This document shows, one piece after another, positions 3,678-20,274 of a stretch of DNA of 21,269 nucleotides; position 1 is the first letter of the stretch; each line of letters opens with the position of its first letter. The DNA is from a virus, in IMG/VR virus record IMGVR_UViG_3300022200_002546, positions 1 through 21,269 of that record; one strand, written 5' to 3'. A program made the position numbers and the translations under genes. A model generated the notes under the pieces. It did not search any database. It was not told where the DNA came from and was given only the letters and a program-made list of their open reading frames with translations.

Positions 3678-3706
3678 GGACATTTGGACACGATGTCCGT
3701 TTGTCC
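3678..3706. repeat. 29-bp GGAC palindrome, copy 2
   Basis: On the plus strand it reads GGACATTTGGAC, five bases (ACGAT), GTCCGTTTGTCC. It sits 3 nt beyond the stop of the 306-aa gene and 18 nt before the start of the 287-aa gene, exactly in the intercistronic gap. Confidence 0.9.
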
Positions 3707-4650: not shown

Positions 4651-5916
4651 TTACAAACGAATGTTGACTGCGTTAGGTGCAGTCTGGTCAGTAGTCATGG
4701 CCCACATCGTAGGCACTCCAAAGTTAGGCCAGTCAATGACATAGCCATCGGACAACATCAGCACAAAGTCAGGCTTTGTGCCCATCTTGTACACGAACCC
4801 TTCAACGCAGCGTGGGTCAGTGCCACCACCACCCGCAGGCTTGGTTGAATGTTCAAGCGTGTCGTACTCGCCAGCTACATAAGTCTCCTCACCAGCCACC
4901 GCCGTGTCCCAGTACAACAAGTGCAGGCGCTCAGGCGGCATGGTCTCGGTGATTGACTTGATCTCAGCAAGGAACGCAGCGATCTCCTCCTGCTTGATAG
5001 ACGCTGAGGTGTCGATGCCAACCACAACAGGGCCAATAGACTCAGCGTACGGGCTAGGCATGTACTTGCCCTGCGCCATCCAGCGACGGTTAGGCTTGCG
5101 CCATGTCGAGGAGTCACGCCCCTGCGTAGCGCCAGTGACGAACTCACGCAACTGCTCACGCCAGTCCACCTTCGGCTCAGGCAGTGCCCCAATGTCACGC
5201 GCAGTGTTGCCACCCAGCTTGCCCGCAAGGATTGAACCCTGACGAATGGCTTGGTCGATAGCTTTGTCGAGCGCCTCGCGTTCTTCTGCCGACAGGTCGT
5301 TGGCGTTCACCCAGTCATGCTCATCCAACGAATTGTCTGCGTTGCCCTTGGCGTAGTGTTCAGCGAACTCATCCGCATCGACAGGCCCACGCTCCTGCGG
5401 CGTGCCATCACCTTGGTTGTCGCCTTGCTGGTCGCCATCCTGCTGGCCCTGCTGCGCTTGCTGCTTCTCCTCAATCTTCTGCTGGAGATACTTGAACACT
5501 TGGCCGGTATCCCACCCACGAAAGCGCTCGTCATAGAGCAGGCCAATCTTGGGCATGGACACCAACTCACCCTCACGGTCGAGGTCAACGATCTGCAAGT
5601 TGATTACATAATCACACGCAGCGTTGGTCAGCTTGGAGTCGATCTTGTCGAGGTGCTTCCAAGTGGTTAAGTGTTTATAGAGAACATGGAAGTTCTCGTG
5701 CGCCACCACGAAGTTGAGTTCCTTCTCATCCAGCCTGTCCATGAACTGCACGCCGTAATACTTATCACGGCCATTCGTGTACGCAGTCGGCACGAGATCC
5801 TTCGGCTTGCTCTCACCCAGCATGATGATGCCGGACAACAGAGCAAACTTTCTGGAACGCATCAGCTGAATGTGGCTGCGCTCGAGGCGTTGCGGTGCTG
5901 TTAGTTTAGTTGCCAT
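4651..5916 (-). CDS. HExxH metallopeptidase-like and VWA domain protein (421 aa)
   Basis: Two domains are visible. Residues about 1-135 hold VAHENFHVLYKHL, an HExxH motif (H73, E74, H77), followed by AACDYVIN with a possible third ligand at D102. This is the arrangement of DUF2201-type putative metallopeptidases. A Gln/Gly/Asp-rich linker follows (about 150-185). From about 295 there is a VWA domain with an intact MIDAS: DTSAS (302-306), a Thr in GGGGTD (366) and Asp in MLSDG (390). The start is the ATG at 5916 after AAGGGGGGAG; the open frame upstream is not needed. The gene lies 10 nt after the MoxR-type ATPase, the classic MoxR/VWA pairing, so it is probably the ATPase's adaptor or effector. 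Proteolysis is inferred only. Confidence 0.85.
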   Translation of the reverse strand: MATKLTAPQRLERSHIQLMRSRKFALLSGIIMLGESKPKDLVPTAYTNGRDKYYGVQFMDRLDEKELNFVVAHENFHVLYKHLTTWKHLDKIDSKLTNAACDYVINLQIVDLDREGELVSMPKIGLLYDERFRGWDTGQVFKYLQQKIEEKQQAQQGQQDGDQQGDNQGDGTPQERGPVDADEFAEHYAKGNADNSLDEHDWVNANDLSAEEREALDKAIDQAIRQGSILAGKLGGNTARDIGALPEPKVDWREQLREFVTGATQGRDSSTWRKPNRRWMAQGKYMPSPYAESIGPVVVGIDTSASIKQEEIAAFLAEIKSITETMPPERLHLLYWDTAVAGEETYVAGEYDTLEHSTKPAGGGGTDPRCVEGFVYKMGTKPDFVLMLSDGYVIDWPNFGVPTMWAMTTDQTAPNAVNIRL

Positions 5917-5926
5917 TGCTCCCCCC

Positions 5927-6967
5927 TTACACAGCCCAAGAGTTTTCACGCGCCCACTTGGTGAACTCAGTCGCGCTTGCCACTAGCCCTGCCTTCTTAG
6001 AACGCATGGCCGCTTGAGCAAACATGAACTGCACCTCACGCGGTAAGCGTTTCAGATACTTCATCCAGTTGTTGATGTTTGAATTGTCAACTCGCATCAC
6101 CGCACCGAGCGCAAGAATGACTGACCCGATTGGGTTGGTCGGGATCTTGGCAGTGTCCGGCTTCTCAACGCACACGGCGAACGGCGTCACATCGTCAGCG
6201 ATGGACAGATACGCTTGAAGATCACGAGCGAACGCCTCACCTGCCGTACCAGACAACGCAGTTATCAGCGTGTCGTCGTCGAGGTTGTGGCGCTGCTTGA
6301 GAATGTGCGACGAGTGTGCGAGCGAGCGACCCGAAACAAACGCAGACTGCTGCTGGCGTGGCGTGAAGATGTATGGGTTGTCGATCTTCTCGTCAGCCGG
6401 ATAGCTAGTGTAGCTGTCCATGCAGTGCGGATACTCCTTGACCCAAGCCATGAGCGTCGGGTCCATGTCGTTGTCCACGCCCCACTCAATCCACTCGTCA
6501 GCCGTAGGCTTGCGGATAGTCAGGAACGACACGCGGTTCTTAGCGTGTGCTTGCAGCGAGTCGCCCACCCCATCCGTCGAGAGGTTAGTCGTACCGAACA
6601 CGATGCTGCCCTCGGGCAGGCGGTACTCACCGATGCGCTTCTCATACAAGACAGGCAGCAGGCCATTGACCACGGCGCGCTGCGCCTTGCCGATCTCATC
6701 CAGCATGTAGATGGTTGGCTCATCAGCCATGAACAATTTATTGGGAACGAATGCCACACTGTCGTCGTTCATCTTGGGCATCTGGAGATCACCAAGGTCG
6801 AGCAGAGTGCAGTCGAAGTAGCGGGTCGGCATGCCGAGCGATTCACCTAGCATGCTGAGCATGGCGGACTTGCCAATCCCCGGCTCGCCCTGAAAGATGA
6901 AGGTGTTGTGTTCGCCGCAGGTTTCAACGAGGTGTGCGGCTTGGGTAAGTGATACTGAAGTGGACAT
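5927..6967 (-). CDS. MoxR/CobS-type AAA+ ATPase (346 aa)
   Basis: Walker A is GEPGIGKS (27-34), Walker B is IYMLDE (86-91) and sensor 1 lies in FGTTN (124-128). A conserved-looking Arg in KNRVSF (145) is a candidate arginine finger. The order and length fit the MoxR/NorQ/CobS branch, whose hexamers remodel proteins or insert metal cofactors together with a VWA partner. That partner is encoded immediately downstream. AAGGAG precedes the ATG at 6967, and a 29-bp palindrome lies 31 nt upstream. The target in a phage context is unknown; it could be a host complex, a phage replication factor or an anti-defence target. The ATPase call is strong. Confidence 0.92.
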   Translation of the reverse strand: MSTSVSLTQAAHLVETCGEHNTFIFQGEPGIGKSAMLSMLGESLGMPTRYFDCTLLDLGDLQMPKMNDDSVAFVPNKLFMADEPTIYMLDEIGKAQRAVVNGLLPVLYEKRIGEYRLPEGSIVFGTTNLSTDGVGDSLQAHAKNRVSFLTIRKPTADEWIEWGVDNDMDPTLMAWVKEYPHCMDSYTSYPADEKIDNPYIFTPRQQQSAFVSGRSLAHSSHILKQRHNLDDDTLITALSGTAGEAFARDLQAYLSIADDVTPFAVCVEKPDTAKIPTNPIGSVILALGAVMRVDNSNINNWMKYLKRLPREVQFMFAQAAMRSKKAGLVASATEFTKWARENSWAV

Positions 6968-6997
6968 GAGAACTCCTTAATTGGAATAAAAGTAAAG

Positions 6998-7026
6998 GGA
7001 CATTTGGACATGAAGTCCGTTTGTCC
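6998..7026. repeat. 29-bp GGAC palindrome, copy 3
   Basis: GGACATTTGGAC, ATGAA, GTCCGTTTGTCC on the plus strand. It begins 31 nt upstream of the AAA+ gene's start codon and overlaps the last base of the preceding gene's stop codon. Confidence 0.9.
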
Positions 7027-9152: not shown

Positions 9153-9181
9153 GGACATTTGGACACAATGTCCGTTTGTCC
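9153..9181. repeat. 29-bp GGAC palindrome, copy 4
   Basis: GGACATTTGGAC, ACAAT, GTCCGTTTGTCC on the plus strand, 18 nt upstream of the start at 9135. The short gap to the stop at 9204 holds only A/T-rich sequence. Confidence 0.9.
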
Positions 9182-9570: not shown

Positions 9571-9771
9571 TTAAATTGTGTACGCCCAGCGTTCGATCCA
9601 CTCTGCACTAGGCAGGGGGAATCCGCTGTACGCTGGGTCAGTCAGGCTTTTGAAGTGGTGGATGAAATGGTCTTGCCACGCGTCGTTGTCGTGGTGCTTT
9701 AGCACCGCAAGGTTGGCCGCTTCGATGGCGTAGTTGCGCGCCGCACGGCGCAGAGTCTTGTCGATTTCCAT
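9571..9771 (-). CDS. Small hypothetical protein, first gene of the leftmost-reading early operon (66 aa)
   Basis: AAAGGA lies seven bases before the ATG at 9771. The longer open frame to 9804 would start inside the palindrome region and is rejected. The product is helical and His/Trp rich (KHHDNDAWQDHFIHHFKSL), with a compact end (SAEWIERWAYTI). The histidine clusters might bind metal but no standard motif is formed. It is promoter-proximal and therefore likely made early after infection. Function is unknown. Confidence 0.68.
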   Translation of the reverse strand: MEIDKTLRRAARNYAIEAANLAVLKHHDNDAWQDHFIHHFKSLTDPAYSGFPLPSAEWIERWAYTI

Positions 9772-9798
9772 AGCGTTTCCTTTGTTGCTCCGGTTGGG

Positions 9799-9827
9799 GG
9801 ACATTTGGACTTTGTGTCCGTTTGTCC
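9799..9827. repeat. 29-bp GGAC palindrome, copy 5
   Basis: GGACATTTGGAC, TTTGT, GTCCGTTTGTCC on the plus strand, 28 nt upstream of the start at 9771. It is about 100 nt downstream of the promoter's expected transcription start, so it lies inside the transcribed leader. Confidence 0.9.
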
Positions 9828-9846
9828 CGAAAAGTTAAAAATAAAC

Positions 9847-9894
9847 GATTTAGTGGGGAAGGTCTTTGCTCCGAGTTGTGGATTTAGTGGGGAA
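9847..9894. repeat. Two 14-bp direct repeats in the early leader
   Basis: GATTTAGTGGGGAA occurs perfectly at 9847-9860 and 9881-9894, 34 bp apart. They lie between the promoter at 9933-9961 and the palindrome at 9799, so both would be transcribed in the leader of the early operon. They may be binding sites for a regulator acting on DNA or RNA. Confidence 0.7.
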
Positions 9895-9932
9895 TAATGC
9901 GTATCAAAGTGAAAAATCTCTGACATTTGCGG

Positions 9933-9961
9933 ATTATACAGCGTTTTGTGCTTAAAGTCAA
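9933..9961 (-). promoter_or_regulatory. Strong sigma70-type promoter of the leftward early operon
   Basis: Reading the minus strand, -35 is TTGACT (9961-9956), the spacer is 17 bp and -10 is a perfect TATAAT (9938-9933). GGACAC lies five bases upstream of the -35, as in the promoter at 7342-7369. Transcription should start near 9926 and give a leader of about 150 nt before the first gene at 9771. Confidence 0.88.
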
Positions 9962-9970
9962 TATGGTGTC

Positions 9971-10050
9971 CTTTGTGGTGCTTTGTGTTGCTTAGTAGTA
10001 CTTTTTTATGTGGCGTGAGGTGGGGGGAAGTGGTGTGAGGTGTGGAGAAG
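9971..10050. repeat. Phased 10-bp and tandem 20-bp repeats upstream of the early promoter
   Basis: From 9971 three 10-bp blocks (CTTTGTGGTG, CTTTGTGTTG, CTTAGTAGTA) and a fourth CTTTTTTATG follow one another on one helical turn. They are followed by two 20-bp blocks at 10011-10030 and 10031-10050 that differ at three positions. The 10- and 20-bp periods place every repeat on the same face of the DNA just upstream of the promoter at 9933-9961, as for cooperative protein binding or bending. Confidence 0.65.
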
Positions 10051-10273
10051 TGTTGGGGTTGTTCCAAGGGGGTGGAACGGCGGGAACGCCCCGTGGGGGC
10101 TAGGTTTTTGGGGTTGCGGAGGGTGGCGTTGTTCCTCCGCGCGGAACGATGTAAGTGGTTGTCCCCCTAAGAGAATTTGGCGATTTTGAGGGGTTGTTCC
10201 ATTGTTCCAAAAATTGAGCCAGCGAGAATGAAATGGGTTTCGCGAAAAACCGAGCGAGCGTGCCGCCAAACCC

Positions 10274-10318
10274 CCTAAAAACTAAAAAAAAATATATCTC
10301 ATAAATAATATAATAAGA
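10274..10318. other. AT-rich tract between inverted GGAAC pairs
   Basis: From about 10276 to 10318 the sequence is almost entirely A and T, with A-runs and TATAAT-like steps. It is flanked on the left by an inverted GGAACAA pair (10192-10213) and on the right by direct GGAACAA pairs. It would melt easily, as a DNA unwinding element does. The TATAAT at 10309 has no matching -35, so a promoter is not called. Confidence 0.5.
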
Positions 10319-10319
10319 A

Positions 10320-10447
10320 GGAACAACTGGAACAATGCTTCAGAATCAACCACTTGCAGTGTTCCATGCGTGGAACAAAATCGCCTTTTTTGGAACAACA
10401 GGAACAATGCCCTAGAATCAACGACTTACAGCATTCCGTGCGGAATA
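10320..10447 (+). repeat. 58-bp imperfect direct repeat (two units, 72-bp spacing)
   Basis: Unit one (10320-10377) and unit two (10392-10447) share the order GGAACAAC-N-GGAACAATGC, AGAATCAAC, ACTT-N-CAG, then a TTCC...GGAA palindrome. The differences are scattered, and in the terminal palindrome they change together: GTTCCA/TGGAAC becomes ATTCCG/CGGAAT. Paired changes that keep the palindrome suggest it matters. The units may be iterons. Confidence 0.75.
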
Positions 10448-10449
10448 GG

Positions 10450-10480
10450 GGACAAACAGACACGAAGTCCATTTGTCTCC
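10450..10480. repeat. 29-bp GGAC palindrome, copy 6 (degenerate)
   Basis: GGACAAACAGAC, ACGAA, GTCCATTTGTC followed by TCC on the plus strand, with one arm mismatch (A for G) and a two-base insertion near the right end. It is one of two copies in the gene-free control region, right after the second GGAAC repeat unit. Confidence 0.75.
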
Positions 10481-10564
10481 CCGCTCGACTCTGTGCCCAG
10501 CGTGACCGAACCTGCTCGCCGCCCCGCTCGACTCAGTGTTCCCCAAAAATAATCCTGCGGAACT

Positions 10565-10593
10565 GGACAAACGGACAAAATGTCCAAATGTCC
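10565..10593. repeat. 29-bp GGAC palindrome, copy 7 (reverse orientation)
   Basis: GGACAAACGGAC, AAAAT, GTCCAAATGTCC on the plus strand. This is exactly the sense that copies 2-5 show on the minus strand, so this copy is turned round relative to them. A TTGACA starts four bases later (10597-10602), but no good -10 follows at the right distance. Confidence 0.88.
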
Positions 10594-10656
10594 CGCTTGA
10601 CATCGTGACCGTTCCGCTCGTTACGCTAACGCGGAACAGCGGAAGGAATAAACGCT

Positions 10657-10807
10657 GAGCGAAGCGAAGCCTGTGAGCGAAGCGAACGCCGCATCATGCG
10701 CATAGCGCGTAGCGAAGCGAGCGCGGCAGCGCATAGAAATACGAGCGAAGCGAGTCCGCATCAAAGCCGAGCGAAGCGAGCAGAAATACATAGTCGAGCG
10801 AAGCGAA
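10657..10807. repeat. Array of six GAGCGAAGCGA repeats
   Basis: The motif (first G replaced by T in one copy) starts at 10657, 10675, 10710, 10743, 10769 and 10796, with irregular spacers of 6-24 bp. Each contains GCGAAGC, a heptamer known from biophysics to fold as single-stranded DNA into an unusually stable mini-hairpin. The last copy is also the loop of a CATAGTC/GACTATG stem. No reading frame is supported here. A role in replication, nucleoprotein binding or recombination is possible. Confidence 0.8.
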
Positions 10808-10841
10808 GACTATGACCGTATCAAAGCCCGTGACCGTACCG

Positions 10842-10876
10842 AAAAAAAAAGCCCGCACGCCTTGCGGCGTGCGGGC
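10842..10876 (-). terminator. Strong intrinsic terminator after the single-gene unit
   Basis: On the minus strand a perfect 11-bp stem (GCCCGCACGCC with GGCGTGCGGGC) and a GCAA tetraloop are followed by nine Ts. It begins 15 nt after the stop at 10892 and should stop leftward transcription before the repeat region. Confidence 0.95.
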
Positions 10877-10891
10877 AATGCGCCTACTGGA

Positions 10892-11584
10892 TTAGCAGGC
10901 GAGCATGGCGCGCAGGGTTTCTGCGTCCGCGTCTTTTACGCGAGCGCGTACTTGCGAGCGCAGTTCTTTAAGTTCTGCGTCCTGCGCGGCGAGTTCCGCC
11001 TTGTTTTCGACTGCGTGAGTGCGAGCCAGCGCCTCCATGATTTTTGTCATGCGTGCTGGATTGCCTTTCGCGATTTCGATAGCGGCGAGCATTTCGTCAG
11101 TGCCTTCGGCATCAGCGCGAGCGCGTACCTGCTGGACAATCTGCGCGTCCTGCGCCTGGCGCTCGGCGGCTTTCGCCTCGCGTTGCTGGCGCTTTTTTAC
11201 TGCGTCCGCGCTTTCCGACTGTTTAATCTCAACGCCTGCGTCGATCAGGTAATTGCGAACACGCGTTGCCATTTTCTCGCCCGCCTTGCTTGCGAGTTCC
11301 TGCACATCTTTCGGCATAGTGCGTCCGCCGTTCTCGGCTTTCCAGCGCTTACCGGCTGACAACATATAGCCGGCATGGAATGCGCCGCGTGATTTAATCC
11401 ACAAGTCATGCTCAAGGATTGAGCCCGCCTTTAAGCCGAGCTTGTCTTTCACTAGAGCCCCTGCGGTATCTACCGCATTCGCCACGCCATATTCGGCGCT
11501 CTCACAAGCTGCGCCAGCATCACGAAAGGTGGAAAGGATAGCGGTATCAATTGCGCCGTTAGCGCTTGCTGCGTTTTTGTTCAT
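10892..11584 (-). CDS. Helical hypothetical protein, single-gene transcription unit (230 aa)
   Basis: The ATG at 11584 follows GGAG by nine bases; the eight codons upstream are leader. No domain is recognised. The N-terminal half includes small-residue-rich helices and WIKSRGAFHAGYMLSAGKRWK around residues 62-82. The C-terminal half (about 125-225) is nearly continuous Ala/Gln/Glu/Arg helix, probably coiled coil. It has its own promoter, a 5' stem-loop and a very strong terminator, so it is expressed alone and possibly at high level. It could be a nucleoid-type, regulatory or host-takeover protein. The lack of any motif leaves this open. Confidence 0.75.
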   Translation of the reverse strand: MNKNAASANGAIDTAILSTFRDAGAACESAEYGVANAVDTAGALVKDKLGLKAGSILEHDLWIKSRGAFHAGYMLSAGKRWKAENGGRTMPKDVQELASKAGEKMATRVRNYLIDAGVEIKQSESADAVKKRQQREAKAAERQAQDAQIVQQVRARADAEGTDEMLAAIEIAKGNPARMTKIMEALARTHAVENKAELAAQDAELKELRSQVRARVKDADAETLRAMLAC

Positions 11585-11614
11585 TTGAACAATCTCCAAT
11601 AAAAGCATTGCGGG

Positions 11615-11638
11615 AAAAAGTCGGGCAATGCAACCGAC
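11615..11638 (-). promoter_or_regulatory. Stem-loop at the 5' end of the single-gene mRNA
   Basis: On the minus strand GTCGG and CCGAC pair around a 9-nt loop and are followed by TTTTT. The hairpin begins about where transcription from 11645-11672 should start. It could protect the 5' end of the mRNA or act as a weak attenuator. Confidence 0.4.
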
Positions 11639-11644
11639 AATTTA

Positions 11645-11672
11645 GTTATAGCACAGTCGGGACAATCCCCAA
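11645..11672 (-). promoter_or_regulatory. Probable promoter of the single-gene unit
   Basis: Reading the minus strand, -10 is TATAAC (11650-11645) with an extended TG one base upstream (TGCTATAAC). A weak -35, TTGGGG, lies 16 bp further (11672-11667). The extended -10 could compensate for the poor -35. Its position just before the leader of the gene at 11584 supports it. Confidence 0.6.
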
Positions 11673-11901
11673 AACTTTTTTAGCGGAACGGGGAGGGCTT
11701 GCGCTTTATAGATAAGTGTCCCAGCGACCCCCGCACCCCAAAAATTTCGGCCTGTCCGCTCTACTTACATACATGCCATTCCACACAAACAACCACTAAA
11801 AATTTTCAAGACCCCCCACCCCCCTTGCAATTCCTGACCAATCCAGTCAGATTACAAATTCCGCGCGATTTATTTAGGAGTCCCTTGTTTTTATTACGTT
11901 T
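11673..11901. other. Gene-free stretch before the terminase genes
   Basis: I see no gene, no convincing sigma70 promoter and no terminator here. It holds a C-rich run around 11813-11824 and a CTGAC/GTCAG inverted repeat at 11834-11850. An AGGAG at 11876-11880 has no matching ATG. The stretch directly precedes the small terminase, where packaging sites (cos or pac) and late promoters often lie, so either could be hidden in it. Confidence 0.4.
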
Positions 11902-11946
11902 ATGCCCTACTCTCTGCCAAACTTAGCTACGGCTACGCAAAAATGA
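11902..11946 (+). CDS. Candidate leader peptide (14 aa) coupled to the small terminase
   Basis: An ATG at 11902 opens 14 codons whose TGA overlaps the ATG of the small terminase (ATGA). AGGAG lies 21 nt upstream, which is too far to be ideal. Since the small terminase has no Shine-Dalgarno of its own, re-initiation after this mini-ORF is a possible way to start it. It may also be chance. Confidence 0.28.
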   Translation: MPYSLPNLATATQK

Positions 11947-12560
11947 CGCTTGATTACCTGCTGAACGACGAGGGCCTGATCCCTCCTCTTGAAACGGTGC
12001 CGTTCGACGCCGTGGAAAAGCCGCGCCTGACGGACAGGGAAGAAATCTTCGCGGCTGCCAATACAGCGAAACTGATGCAAGACCTTGGCGACGACGAAAT
12101 TACCGTCGAGCCAGAGGACGAAATGCGCGCCCAAGACATTTTTGAGGAAGCGCGCACCCCCACGAAGTACGAACGGACACTGCCGGGGGTGATGCTCAAG
12201 CTCGAGGCGCTCCTCACCGAGTACGACTACTCAATAATTCACGATGCCCAGCAGGTGCGGACCTACGTCACCAACCGCCTGCTGGAGGAAACCTCCGACC
12301 CAGATCCAAAAATCCGCCTTCGTGCCTACGAATTGCTGGGTAAGATCAGCGATGTCGGCCTGTTCACCGAGCGGAAGGAAGTAACAATCAAGCACCAGAG
12401 CACGGAAGAGCTCACTGACCTCCTTCGCAGCAAGTTAAGCCGCCTAATAGACGGCCAAGCCGAGGAAATTGAGGAAGGGTTGTTTGAAGAACGCAGTATG
12501 TACGAGGCCAAACGGTTGGCTGAGACAGTAACCGCTGACGATCTTCTGAACGAACTTTAA
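11943..12560 (+). CDS. Putative terminase small subunit (205 aa)
   Basis: The gene lies directly before the large terminase with only one base between stop and start, the usual place for the DNA-recognition subunit of the packaging motor. The N-terminal third is acidic. A helical core (about 85-150) contains YERTLPGVMLKLEALLTEY and KIRLRAYELLGKISDVGLF, and the acidic C-terminus could touch the large subunit. No classic HTH is obvious, and the call rests on position and helical make-up. The ATG at 11943 has no Shine-Dalgarno. The frame stays open upstream to a TGA at 11835 without another ATG, so the true start is uncertain. Confidence 0.72.
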   Translation: MTLDYLLNDEGLIPPLETVPFDAVEKPRLTDREEIFAAANTAKLMQDLGDDEITVEPEDEMRAQDIFEEARTPTKYERTLPGVMLKLEALLTEYDYSIIHDAQQVRTYVTNRLLEETSDPDPKIRLRAYELLGKISDVGLFTERKEVTIKHQSTEELTDLLRSKLSRLIDGQAEEIEEGLFEERSMYEAKRLAETVTADDLLNEL

Positions 12561-12561
12561 G

Positions 12562-14139
12562 ATGGGCGCGCAAGCTGCTGAATTAACGCAAGAAGAGATC
12601 GTAGCACTGCTCTCAAACCTCGACAAAATGAGCGAGGCGGAGAAGATGCAGGTGCTAAGCGTGGTCGAGGAGCTGGAAAACCGCAGAAAAGCCAACGCCG
12701 CGCGCTTAAATCTGCTGGATTTCGCCAAAATGATGATGCCGGAGTACAAAATCGGCAGACATCACAGAAAATTGGCCCAACTTCTCGAAGATATGGCCTA
12801 CGGACGCAAGTCCCGCGTCACAGTCAGCATCGCACCTCGTATGGGTAAGTCCCAGCTGACGTCAATTTTCTTCCCGGCGTGGTTTATCGGCAATTTTCCG
12901 GCCAAAAAGATAATGATGGTGTCGCACACGGCGGATCTGGCCGTCGATTTCGGTCGTAAAGTGCGAAATCTGGTCAATTCCGAGGAATATAAGCAAATCT
13001 TCCCCGATGTCAGCCTCGCTGCTGACTCAAAGTCGGCTGGTCGGTGGGATACCAACAAGGGCGGGACGTATTTCGCGATCGGTATCGGCGGTGCGATCGC
13101 AGGTCGCGGTGCTGACCTGCTGGTGATCGACGACCCCCACAACGAACAGGACATTTTGAACGGAAACTTCGAGGTTTTCGAGAAGGCGTACGAGTGGTAC
13201 GCCTACGGTGCTCGTACTCGTCTGATGCCCGGTGGTGCTGTGGCTGTTGTAGCAACACGATGGGCGGAGCAAGACCTGATTGGCAAGTTGCAGACGGACA
13301 TGATCCGCAACGAGGGGTCAGATCAGTGGGATGTGGTGGAGTTCCCGGCGTTATTTGAGCGGTCGGACGCCCCGGCGTCGGCTCCAGAAGAAGAGAAGTA
13401 CACGGCCCTCTGGCCTGAGCAGTGGCCGGTAGAAGCCCTGTTAAAAACAAAGGCGTCTATGCCGGGGTTCCAGTGGGCGGCGCAGTACCTCCAGCAGCCG
13501 ACATCCCGAGATGCAGCGATAATTAAGCGTGAGTGGTGGCAAGAGTGGGACAAGGACCACCCGCCCCAGTGCGAGTACATAATCATGTCACTCGACGCCG
13601 CAGCAGAAAAAAACAACCGTGCTGACTACACCGCGCTTACGACGTGGGGTGTGTTTTATATGGACAGCCCGGAGACGGGCAGGTCGGAGGCAAACATTAT
13701 TCTGCTCAACTCAATCAAAGAACGCCTCGAGTTTCCTGAGCTGAAACGGCTTGCCTACGACGAGTACAGTGACTGGCAGCCAGATTGGTTCGTGGTGGAA
13801 AAGAAATCAGCCGGTACTGCCCTGTACCAAGAGATGCGCAGAGCAGGAATACCAGTACAGGAAATAACGCCAACTCGAGCTTCGGGCGATAAAGTAGCGC
13901 GCCTAAACGCAGTTTCTGATATTTTTGCATCTGGCATGGTGTGGTATCCAGCAGGACGGCGCTGGTCAGAAGAAGTTGTAGACGAGGTTTGTGGGTTCCC
14001 AGCCATGCCACATGACGACTTGGTGGACTCGACGATTTATGCGCTGATGCGGTTTCGCGACGGCGGTTTTATTCGCCTCCCCAGTGACTCGTGGGAGGAT
14101 GAGCATGATTATCAGCCGGTACGCGCAGCGTACTATTAG
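12562..14139 (+). CDS. terL: Terminase large subunit (525 aa)
   Basis: This is the ATP-driven motor and nuclease that packages DNA into the prohead. The ATPase domain shows a Walker A variant APRMGKS (91-97), Walker B LLVIDDP (186-192) and an ATRW motif (231-234) of the kind seen in this family. The RNase H-like nuclease domain has SLDAA (D345), VVEKK (E413) and HDDLVDS (D485, D486, D489) as likely metal ligands. Length is typical. The ATG at 12562 follows the small-subunit stop by one base and has no clear Shine-Dalgarno, so translation is probably coupled. The function call is very secure. Confidence 0.97.
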   Translation: MGAQAAELTQEEIVALLSNLDKMSEAEKMQVLSVVEELENRRKANAARLNLLDFAKMMMPEYKIGRHHRKLAQLLEDMAYGRKSRVTVSIAPRMGKSQLTSIFFPAWFIGNFPAKKIMMVSHTADLAVDFGRKVRNLVNSEEYKQIFPDVSLAADSKSAGRWDTNKGGTYFAIGIGGAIAGRGADLLVIDDPHNEQDILNGNFEVFEKAYEWYAYGARTRLMPGGAVAVVATRWAEQDLIGKLQTDMIRNEGSDQWDVVEFPALFERSDAPASAPEEEKYTALWPEQWPVEALLKTKASMPGFQWAAQYLQQPTSRDAAIIKREWWQEWDKDHPPQCEYIIMSLDAAAEKNNRADYTALTTWGVFYMDSPETGRSEANIILLNSIKERLEFPELKRLAYDEYSDWQPDWFVVEKKSAGTALYQEMRRAGIPVQEITPTRASGDKVARLNAVSDIFASGMVWYPAGRRWSEEVVDEVCGFPAMPHDDLVDSTIYALMRFRDGGFIRLPSDSWEDEHDYQPVRAAYY

Positions 14140-14147
14140 GATGAAAT

Positions 14148-16589
14148 ATGGCAGTTGAAAAAGCGATGTACGGCGCCCCGATGGGTCTCGAAGAAGAAGC
14201 GATGAACGAAGAACCTGTAGAGGTTGAGGTCGCTATTGAGGACCCAGAAAGCGTTGAGTTTTCTATTAACGGCGAAGAAATTTTTGAAATTGAAGCCGGT
14301 GATGCGGGGGATGAGATCGCACACAACGCGAACCTTGCCGAGTACATCGACGAGGATCAACTGGGCGTCATCGCTGATGATTTGCTCGAGGCGTATGCCA
14401 CAGATATTGAATCCAGAGCGGAGTGGGAAGAAACCTACTACGACGGGCTTGAGCTGCTGGGCCTCAAGATTGAGGACCGGTCGGAACCTTGGGAAGGTGC
14501 TTTTGGCGTTTATCACCCCCTCCTCGCGGAAGCTGTAGTGAAGTTCCAATCGGAGACGATTGTTGAAACTTTCCCTGCACAGGGGCCAGTCAAGACTAAG
14601 ATTCTTGGGGCCACAAACCGTGAGAAAGAGGAGTCTGCCGCACGTGTTCGTGAAGACATGAACTTTGCGCTGACAGACGGAATGCCCGACTACAGGTCTG
14701 AGCACGAGCGCCTATTGTGGAACCTGCCAATCGCAGGCTCTGCATTTAAGAAGGTTTTCTACGACGCGTCACTCGAGCGCCCAGTAGCTCAATTTATTGG
14801 TGCGGAAGATTTCGTGGTCAGCTATGGCGCGACAAGTTTGGATACTGCCCAGCGTTATACGCACCGCATGAAGTGTACAAAAAATGAGCTGCGCAAGATG
14901 CAGGTCAGTGGGTTTTATAAAGAGTGTGATCTGGGTGATCCGGTAGCGGACGAAGATGACATTCAGCGTCGCAAAAACGAGCTTGGAGGCTACGATGCAG
15001 CACGAGACGACCGGTACACCGTCCTTGAAGTCCATTGTGAACTCGACATTGATGGGTTTGAGGACTTGGATAAAGAAGGTGAGCCGACGGGTATCGAACT
15101 TCCGTATGTCGTAACGATCCTCAAAGACAGCGGCAAGATTCTGTCGATCTACCGTAACTGGGATGAGATGGACGACAAGAAGCGCAAGCTCGTCCACTTT
15201 GCCGACTATAAATACATTCCGGGCTTTGGCTTCTACGGCTTTGGTCTGATTCACCTCATTGGCGGCTTTGCAAAGGGTGCAACGAGCATCATGCGTCAGC
15301 TGGTGGATGCGGGCACACTGGCAAACTTGCCGGGTGGTTTCCGTACTCGCGGGCTTCGTATCCGTGGTGGTGATACTCCGATCGCTCCGGGTGAGTTCCG
15401 TGATGTCGATGTACCGACTGGCACAATCCGCGACAACATCATGCCGCTGCCGTACAAAGAGCCGTCTACGGTTCTGGCGGGGCTGCTCGATAAGATCGTG
15501 GGTGAAGCGCGCCGCTTCGCGTCAATGGCGGATATACAGGTGGCGGATATGTCTGCCAACACGCCTGTAGGCTCAACGCTGGCAATTCTTGAGCGTCAGT
15601 TGAAGGTGATGACCGCTGTTCAAGCGCGTGTACACGCAGCGATGAAGGGCGAGTTTAAGATCCTGAAGAAGATCATGGCGGAGCTTGCTCCGGTCGACTA
15701 CGAGTACGATGCACAGGGTGATGAAGGGTTCGCTGCACGTCAGCGTGACTACTCTAACGTAGAGATTATCCCTGTTTCAGATCCGAATGCGTCCACCATG
15801 TCGCAGCGCGTAGCGCAGTATCAAGCGGCGATGCAGTTGGCTGCACAGTCTCCTGACCTGTACGACCTGCCGTTGCTACACCGCCAGATGATCGAGACGC
15901 TGGGTATTAAGAACGCAGCTGAACTTGTGCCGGATAAGGACGACATTAAGCCGTGCGATCCGATGACCGAGAACATGAACATGTTGCAGGGCAAGCCGGT
16001 CAAGGCGTTCGCGTATCAGGACCACGAGGCGCACATCAAGGCGCATCAGGCGTTTGCTGACGATCCGAAAATTCAACAGGTTGTTCAAGCGCAAGGTGAA
16101 GCCGCAGCGATCAAGATTGCAGCACTGCACGCGCACATCGCTGAGCACGTGGCGTTTGCGTACCGTGCCAAGGTTGAGATGGAGCTAGGTGTACCGCTCC
16201 CAGCGTACGACGAAGAGCAGAAACTGGACCAAGAGCAGGAACTCGCCATTTCTCGTCTCGTCGCCGAGGCAGCGCCTCGCATTACTGGCAAACATCAGCA
16301 GGAAGAAAAAACCAAGGCCGAGCAGGCTCAGGCTCAAGATCCTGTCATTCAGATGCAGCAGAAAGAACTTCAGCTCCAAGAACAGGAGCTGCAACGCAAG
16401 GTCCAGAAGGACCAGATGGATTACGACATCAAGCTCAAAAACTTGGTGCTCGAAGGATACCGCGTCGAGTCGCAAGAAAAGCAGGCTGGCGCTGCAATGG
16501 GAGCCAAGGCGGCTTCCGACAAAAACAAGACTGAAGCTGACCTCAAGAAGGCTGGTCTGAAGGCCGGAATTGATCTGGCAAAACGCTAA
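14148..16589 (+). CDS. Portal protein (813 aa)
   Basis: Portal proteins form the dodecameric ring at the head vertex through which DNA enters and leaves. The gene directly follows the large terminase and precedes scaffold and capsid. The protein has an acidic N-terminal extension (about 1-75), then WEETYYDGLELLGLKIEDRSEPWEGAFGVYHPLL, a pattern typical of large portals. A central region (about 350-510) includes KGATSIMRQLVDAGTLANLPGG and IQVADMSANTPVGSTLAILER. The long C-terminal tail (about 640-810) is Gln/Glu/Lys-rich and helical, which may be a barrel or coiled coil extending into the head. AGGATGAAAT precedes the ATG. At 813 aa it is longer than many portals. Confidence 0.92.
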   Translation: MAVEKAMYGAPMGLEEEAMNEEPVEVEVAIEDPESVEFSINGEEIFEIEAGDAGDEIAHNANLAEYIDEDQLGVIADDLLEAYATDIESRAEWEETYYDGLELLGLKIEDRSEPWEGAFGVYHPLLAEAVVKFQSETIVETFPAQGPVKTKILGATNREKEESAARVREDMNFALTDGMPDYRSEHERLLWNLPIAGSAFKKVFYDASLERPVAQFIGAEDFVVSYGATSLDTAQRYTHRMKCTKNELRKMQVSGFYKECDLGDPVADEDDIQRRKNELGGYDAARDDRYTVLEVHCELDIDGFEDLDKEGEPTGIELPYVVTILKDSGKILSIYRNWDEMDDKKRKLVHFADYKYIPGFGFYGFGLIHLIGGFAKGATSIMRQLVDAGTLANLPGGFRTRGLRIRGGDTPIAPGEFRDVDVPTGTIRDNIMPLPYKEPSTVLAGLLDKIVGEARRFASMADIQVADMSANTPVGSTLAILERQLKVMTAVQARVHAAMKGEFKILKKIMAELAPVDYEYDAQGDEGFAARQRDYSNVEIIPVSDPNASTMSQRVAQYQAAMQLAAQSPDLYDLPLLHRQMIETLGIKNAAELVPDKDDIKPCDPMTENMNMLQGKPVKAFAYQDHEAHIKAHQAFADDPKIQQVVQAQGEAAAIKIAALHAHIAEHVAFAYRAKVEMELGVPLPAYDEEQKLDQEQELAISRLVAEAAPRITGKHQQEEKTKAEQAQAQDPVIQMQQKELQLQEQELQRKVQKDQMDYDIKLKNLVLEGYRVESQEKQAGAAMGAKAASDKNKTEADLKKAGLKAGIDLAKR

Positions 16590-19362: not shown

Positions 19363-20274
19363 ATGGCAATTTCACGCGCACAAATGGTGAAGGAGCTCCT
19401 GCCGGGCCTGAACGCACTGTTCGGCATGGAGTATTCTCGTTATGGTGAAGAGCATAAGGAAATTTTCGAGACCGAAAGTTCTGATCGCTCTTTTGAAGAA
19501 GAAGTGAAGCTGAGCGGCTTCTCTGCTGCACCGGTTAAGTCTGAAGGCGACGCCATTCAGTACGACGCTGCACAAGAAGCGTTCACCTCTCGCTACAGCC
19601 ACGAAACCATCGCTTTGGGCTTCAGCATTACTGAAGAAGCGGTAGAAGACAATCTGTATGACAGCCTGTCTTCTCGCTACACCAAGGCTCTGGCTCGTGC
19701 TATGGCGTACACCAAGCAGATCAAGGCTGCGTCTGTGTTGAATAACGCATTCGCTGCTTCTGGCTACACTGGTGGTGACGGTGTGACCCTGTGCTCTACT
19801 GCACACCCGCTGGTATCTGGTGGTACTAACTCCAACAGACCTGCGGTAAACGCTGACCTGAACGAAACCTCCCTTGAGGCGGCAGTAATTCAGATCGGTG
19901 GTTGGACTGACGAGCGCGGCCTGCTGATCGCAGCTAAGCCGAAGAAGCTCATCATTCCTCGTGACCTGATGTTCGTGGCTACCCGTCTGTTGAAGACTGA
20001 AGGCCGTGTTAGCACCGCTGACAACGACATCAACGCAATCGCCAACAACGGTGCGATTCCGGGCGGTTACGCAGTGAATAACTTCCTGACCGACAGCGAT
20101 GCGTGGTTCCTGACCACTGACATCCCGAATGGTCTGAAGCACTTCGTGCGTACTCCGATGACCACCAAAATGGAGGGGGACTTCGACACCGGTAACGTAC
20201 GTTACAAGGCGCGCGAAAGATACTCTTTCGGTTGGTCCGATGCGTTAGGTATCTTCGGTTCGCCGGGCGCCTAA
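19363..20274 (+). CDS. Major capsid protein (303 aa)
   Basis: AGGAG lies upstream of the ATG at 19363. The sequence has HK97-fold-like features. An N-terminal helical segment (KELLPGLNALFGMEY) is followed by an E-loop-like stretch (about 50-90), then YSHETIALGFSITEEAVEDN and a central P-domain-type helix (SSRYTKALARAMAYTKQIKAASVLNNAF). The C-terminal half has beta strands with CSTAHPLVSGG, KKLIIPRDLMFVATRLL and RYKARERYSFGWSDALGIFGSPGA. It resembles Mu gpT-type and related capsid proteins. Size and position after scaffold and decoration genes make the call strong, and the codon bias fits abundant expression. A terminator follows. Confidence 0.93.
   Translation: MAISRAQMVKELLPGLNALFGMEYSRYGEEHKEIFETESSDRSFEEEVKLSGFSAAPVKSEGDAIQYDAAQEAFTSRYSHETIALGFSITEEAVEDNLYDSLSSRYTKALARAMAYTKQIKAASVLNNAFAASGYTGGDGVTLCSTAHPLVSGGTNSNRPAVNADLNETSLEAAVIQIGGWTDERGLLIAAKPKKLIIPRDLMFVATRLLKTEGRVSTADNDINAIANNGAIPGGYAVNNFLTDSDAWFLTTDIPNGLKHFVRTPMTTKMEGDFDTGNVRYKARERYSFGWSDALGIFGSPGA

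Follow-up and report, generated by a model that had tools for sequence, protein, structure and literature searches.

A repeat-rich noncoding region at positions 10061-10637 of a 21,269-base virus record (IMG/VR record IMGVR_UViG_3300022200_002546, the whole of which we call the window, and which is probably an incomplete virus genome) is very probably a phage replication origin read by a phage initiator, presumably a DUF927 primase-helicase. A preliminary description had put the region forward as a candidate replication origin, and the proposal gained support from its conserved architecture and position, from short repeats (iterons) that switch in unison between relatives, from an initiator-type DUF927 primase-helicase encoded by those relatives and from minima of GC skew. 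The argument is made at the sequence level, from the iterons, their inversion, an AT-rich core, consensus sites for integration host factor (IHF), conservation, unison switching and the co-occurrence of the primase-helicase in relatives; from these we infer protein binding, melting, the direction of replication and the presence of an initiator in the window's own genome.

Repeat architecture of the noncoding region

GGAAC/GTTCC pentamers occur 17 times within the 577 bp of 10061-10637, as opposed to 1.1 times per 577 bp in the rest of the window and a mean of 1.8 (maximum 7) in Markov shuffles of the region. Their orientation depends on their position relative to an AT-rich core at 10275-10319, with GGAACA present in 0 forward and 4 reversed copies to the left and in 6 forward and 2 reversed copies to the right. 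The core is the AT-richest 45 bp of the whole window (the best 45-bp windows start at 10275/10276) and is our proposed unwinding element. Clustered short repeats and an AT-rich element, the general features of iteron origins, are both found in the region, iteron binding being predicted.

The repeated unit consists of GGAAC-N4-GGAAC, a spacer with AATCAANNACTTR, and GTTCC-N6-GGAAC. It forms a long repeat at 10320-10376 and 10392-10446 (82% identity over 51 nt, spacing 72), and a degenerate inverted copy sits left of the core. The inverted GGAACAA pairs that had been described on either side of the AT-rich tract do mirror each other, as TTGTTCCATTGTTCC on the left (10194-10208, minus strand, with GTTCC at 10196 and 10204) and GGAACAACTGGAACAA on the right (10320-10335), where GGAACAACTGGAAC forms the inner iteron pair (10320-10333, plus strand); the pair of the second unit is GGAACAACAGGAAC (10392-10405, plus strand). 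All five palindromes of the preliminary description were likewise recovered: 10061-10078, within the left outer iterons GTTCC-N8-GGAAC-N4-GGAAC (10061-10087); GTTCC-N7-GGAAC at 10131-10147; GTTCC-N6-GGAAC at 10361-10376; ATTCC..GGAAT at 10433-10446; and the outermost, GTTCCGC..GCGGAAC, at 10611-10637. The terminal palindrome of the long repeat changes symmetrically between units, as had been claimed, since both arms differ (GTTCC..GGAAC to ATTCC..GGAAT).

The spacer motif AATCAANNACTTR matches WATCAANNNNTTR, the consensus for IHF, exactly. Of three perfect matches in the window, two fall in this region, AATCAACCACTTG at 10344-10356 and AATCAACGACTTA at 10416-10428 (both plus strand), and had been overlooked in the preliminary description. 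Sequence inspection revealed a degenerate IHF-like site with two mismatches at 10152-10164 (minus strand), within the inverted unit on the left.

Conservation and unison switching of the iterons

A scan for terL, the terminase large subunit gene, returned 80 loci in relatives. Nearly all relatives that cover the gap, dozens of phages with terL identities from 100% to ~60%, possess an equivalent noncoding gap with an AT-rich core between inverted iterons; the layout was not seen in L022, L030 and L063, whose coverage of the gap was not checked. The iteron sequence itself varies by genome (GGAACA, CGAACATT, GTAACATT or AAACATT). We found GGAACA in the window, L020 and L053; GAACA with a varied first base in L009, L024, L039 and L056; GTAACA in L060, L076, L078, L083 and G027; AAACATT in L059; and GGTAAC in L016. 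Absence of the repeats from close relatives had been named as what would speak against an origin; instead, the structure is kept while its letters change. Of four matches to the pattern of GGAAC repeats, two (L088, L089) were discarded as chance occurrences within an unrelated, AT-rich phage.

Across 28 origins, one per distinct sequence with several still related, iterons numbered 33 in forward and 86 in reverse-complement orientation left of the core, and 108 and 29, respectively, right of it (p ~1e-16, the p-values of these counts ignoring relatedness). Perfect IHF sites are ~53-fold enriched in origin regions, with 26 in 21.9 kb of origin versus 8 in 355 kb of other sequence (Markov expectation 1.6). 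A genome-wide scan for inverted iterons ranked the gap first in the window, in G001, G002, G003, G005, G006 and G007, and in the Pseudomonas phage Rollin (see below). Cumulative GC-skew minima, a check suggested in the preliminary description, fall no more than ~2 kb from the gap in six of the seven longer relatives (the same six G genomes) and do not place the origin elsewhere; they coincide with the switch in gene direction, so the skew lends weak support.

Comparison of L053 with L078 revealed the same one-base change, GGAACA becoming GTAACA, in 12 of 12 iterons, irrespective of their strand and of their side of the core. The two share terL at 98%, terS (the terminase small subunit gene) at 98% (4 differences in 200 amino acids), the MoxR gene at 99% and the gap at ~95% identity. 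That all iterons switched in unison argues for one sequence-specific trans-acting factor of altered specificity, and TerS, 98% identical across a complete switch, is therefore an unlikely reader. The comparison thus points to a single trans-acting iteron reader and disfavors a packaging site.

A further element, of GGAACTGGTATC type, occurs in two to three copies beside the terminator right of the origin (L053:7130-7900, right part), with equivalents in L024, L056, L060, L076, L081, L083, G026 and G027. These elements are unchanged across the L053/L078 switch and are perhaps a promoter or a second binding site. The GGAACTGG elements near the relatives' right-hand terminator were rejected as iterons, being unswitched between L053 and L078.

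Candidate initiator and alternative readings

Mapping of the seven longer relatives, four of them 58-60 kb in length, located a 908-951-amino-acid protein at the far end of the leftward arm in every one, its gene lying ~14-20 kb from the origin. This ~930-residue protein combines AEP primase motifs with a DUF927 helicase, and its C-terminal unit, of strand-strand-helix-helix-strand-strand order, resembles a winged helix. In the G007 protein the C-terminal domain covers residues ~853-927. By sequence and model it matches SCCmec Cch (5dgk, model E 7e-18) and SaPIbov1 Rep (8tch, model E 2e-17), its nearest solved structures being the Cch helicase and the SaPIbov1 replication initiator, while its N-terminus matches the phage PrimPol 6zp9. 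Cch contains DUF927 and is related to SaPIbov1 Rep, and the Rep helicases of Staphylococcus aureus pathogenicity islands (SaPIs) read iterons through their C-terminal domain (PMC7581432); fusions of DUF927 domains to AEP primases are known from mobile elements (PMC5862659). The leftward arm of G002 additionally encodes a DNA polymerase A, an SNF2-type helicase, a PD-(D/E)XK exonuclease and a gp2.5-like single-stranded DNA-binding protein.

Outside the group, the cultured Pseudomonas aeruginosa phage Rollin encodes a relative of the DUF927 protein (27.7% identical over 88% of its length), and ~258-680 of its record (OR577172) harbors TATGCAA iterons around the genome's AT-richest tract together with an IHF site. 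In Rhizobium phage RHph_TM27A the DUF927 protein is more distant; this phage has an AT core, and the only two perfect IHF sites in its 60.9-kb genome flank its AT-richest tract (L112:19400-19980). HTVC023P and DSL-LC04, TerL relatives that the DUF927 search did not return, contain no inverted-iteron cluster.

Initiation might then proceed as follows. The DUF927 primase-helicase, whose gene would lie outside our fragment at the distal end of the leftward early arm, would bind the GGAAC(A) iterons through its winged-helix-like C-terminal domain. Loading at the two mirror-image iteron sets would yield two helicase assemblies, both pointing toward the core at 10275-10319. Bending of the DNA by host IHF at AATCAANNACTTR would bring together the inverted iterons that flank each IHF site and aid core melting. 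The N-terminal AEP domain would prime synthesis, to be extended by the family-A polymerase and the gp2.5-like single-stranded DNA-binding protein that relatives encode.

Besides the relatedness of the 28 origins and the confounded GC skew, several points weigh against this reading. The window, a 21-kb fragment, does not contain the initiator gene. None of the DUF927 contigs could be assigned to the window's own clade, an attempt to link one by its dyad having failed. Ten of the 28 origins have no perfect IHF site. RHph_TM27A displays no clear iteron cluster, leaving the pattern uneven outside the phage group. Finally, covariation between residues of the DUF927 C-terminus and iteron type is weak and only suggestive: in G026/G027, a second switch pair, the primase-helicase is 90% identical but carries nine differences in its last 28 residues, and in a comparison of 12 genomes the excess divergence of the C-terminus between iteron types was only slight.

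This weak covariation leaves some room for an origin at which the DUF927 protein is recruited only after the iterons have been read by another factor, such as an unseen early protein or the product of the adjacent open reading frame (ORF) at 10892-11608. The position of the leftward ORF is kept, and its product, at 84% identity between L053 and L078, is less conserved than TerS. We nevertheless consider such a reader unlikely: the adjacent ORFs of different genomes show no detectable relation (10-26% identity) whereas the iterons stay similar, and SaPI Rep helicases, as noted, use a C-terminal domain of their own.

Unison switching would also be compatible with a phage regulator bound to the iterons as a transcriptional operator array, controlling the leftward early operon and the neighboring ORF from a noncoding region with a strong leftward promoter. 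That promoter, of sigma-70 type (TTGACT-17-TATAAT, 9933-9961, minus strand), reads into the early operon from outside the iteron block, with the iterons ~100-670 bp upstream of it. Mirror symmetry about an AT-rich core with IHF sites resembles an origin, and the dispersed dyads upstream of leftward gene starts, described below, would make better operators; we judge this account improbable. Binding of the terminase small subunit at a pac/cos-like packaging site is about as improbable, for although presumed terS lies only ~1.3 kb away and repeats accompany IHF-type sites, as in phage lambda cosB, where repeated terminase sites are combined with an IHF site, inverted iterons flanking an AT-rich core would be unexpected there and TerS barely changed while every iteron switched. 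An origin served by a DUF927 initiator thus remains our preferred reading.

Gene setting, dispersed dyads and comparison with known origins

The leftward arm, which includes genes for a VWA-type protein (4651-5949) and a MoxR-type ATPase (5927-6967) along with small genes, ends at 9771 and is followed by 1.1 kb of noncoding sequence (9772-10891). The preliminary description had placed the repeats between oppositely read modules, but the right-hand neighbor, a 238-amino-acid ORF at 10892-11608, is also leftward. The repeats themselves are therefore not flanked by divergent genes, and the direction switches only at 11609-11942. Rightward late genes then follow: terS (11943-12560, presumed from its position), terL (12562-14139), portal (14148-16589) and major capsid (19363-20274). 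An intrinsic terminator of the 238-residue ORF (10851-10876, minus strand) points into the gap and marks the right-hand boundary. In every relative checked, a terminator-bounded leftward ORF of ~165-238 amino acids occupies the equivalent position; no homology was detectable among most of these, leaving the ORF unsupported as a conserved iteron reader. Right of the origin, AGCGAAGCGA occurs six times inside 150 bp of noncoding sequence (10657-10806) and nowhere else in the window, and L016 has a similar GC-rich run. Neither an Rfam family nor a tRNA accounts for the repeats, none being detected, and annotated phages gave no DNA match.

A 29-bp dyad, GGACANNNGGACANNNTGTCCNNNTGTCC (GGACA..GGACA..TGTCC..TGTCC), has seven near-copies in the window, some imperfect. 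Five of them (809-837, 3678-3706, 6997-7026, 9153-9181 and, upstream of the first leftward gene, 9799-9827) occupy or border short intergenic gaps, a small distance upstream of the starts of leftward genes; the other two, an imperfect copy at 10450-10477 and one at 10565-10593, fall inside the repeat interval. We rejected a common family with the GGAAC repeats, since the GGACA dyad, unlike the iterons, is scattered upstream of leftward genes. Relatives have other dyads in equivalent places (TGTCTAATTAGACA in L020, TGTCTAAATTTAGACA in L009), and further relatives have palindromes of GTATGGA, TTAGGGA or TTAGTA type; L087, with one GGACA dyad but no alignment to the window, was set aside. We read the dispersed dyads as putative genome-specific operators, distinct from the iterons and with rapid turnover. 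A predicted protein at 1822-2322 is a possible regulator of the GGACA dyads; it has a helix-turn-helix at its N-terminus, and its C-terminus is hydrophobic and may span the membrane.

Among known systems, the origins of phage-inducible chromosomal islands (PICIs), including SaPIs, offer the closest parallel: two sets of element-specific iterons flank an AT-rich region, and the initiator is a self-loading helicase, SaPIbov1 Rep being DUF927-related (PMC6092414, PMC7581432). The former source also mentions replication of satellite phage P4 by alpha and its ori (PMC6092414). Several differences separate the PICI design from the present one. The phages considered here are non-satellites of ~60 kb, the window itself encoding terminase, portal and major capsid proteins; the PICI origin lies directly 3' of the initiator gene, as opposed to ~14-20 kb away in our relatives; an AEP primase is fused to the DUF927 helicase; and IHF consensus sites belong to the repeat unit. 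A limited literature search found the arrangement described neither for any non-satellite phage nor in combination with IHF sites.

The odds appear evenly balanced that many aquatic phages of ~60 kb, forming a large group, replicate from a PICI-type origin (two iteron sets around an AT core, with a DUF927 primase-helicase) to which IHF sites are added, and in which iterons and reader would switch specificity together and so create replication-compatibility groups among near-identical phages. If so, a kind of origin regarded as specific to phage satellites would extend to non-satellite phages, and a whole group of uncultured aquatic phages would gain a defined origin and a testable initiator. 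The pairs L053/L078 and G026/G027 offer natural experiments on the joint change of initiator and iteron specificity, bearing also on whether iteron type decides the sharing of replication apparatus between phages and satellites.

More distant parallels exist. In the lambda ori with its O protein and in the iteron plasmids pSC101 and P1, iterons likewise adjoin an AT-rich element, and IHF assists opening in some; unlike the inverted sets on both sides of the core described here, theirs form direct arrays that flank the element on a single side, and their initiators are not helicases. Satellite phage P4 also pairs a primase-helicase-initiator with iterons near an AT-rich stretch, but differs in having a bipartite origin and a helicase of another family.
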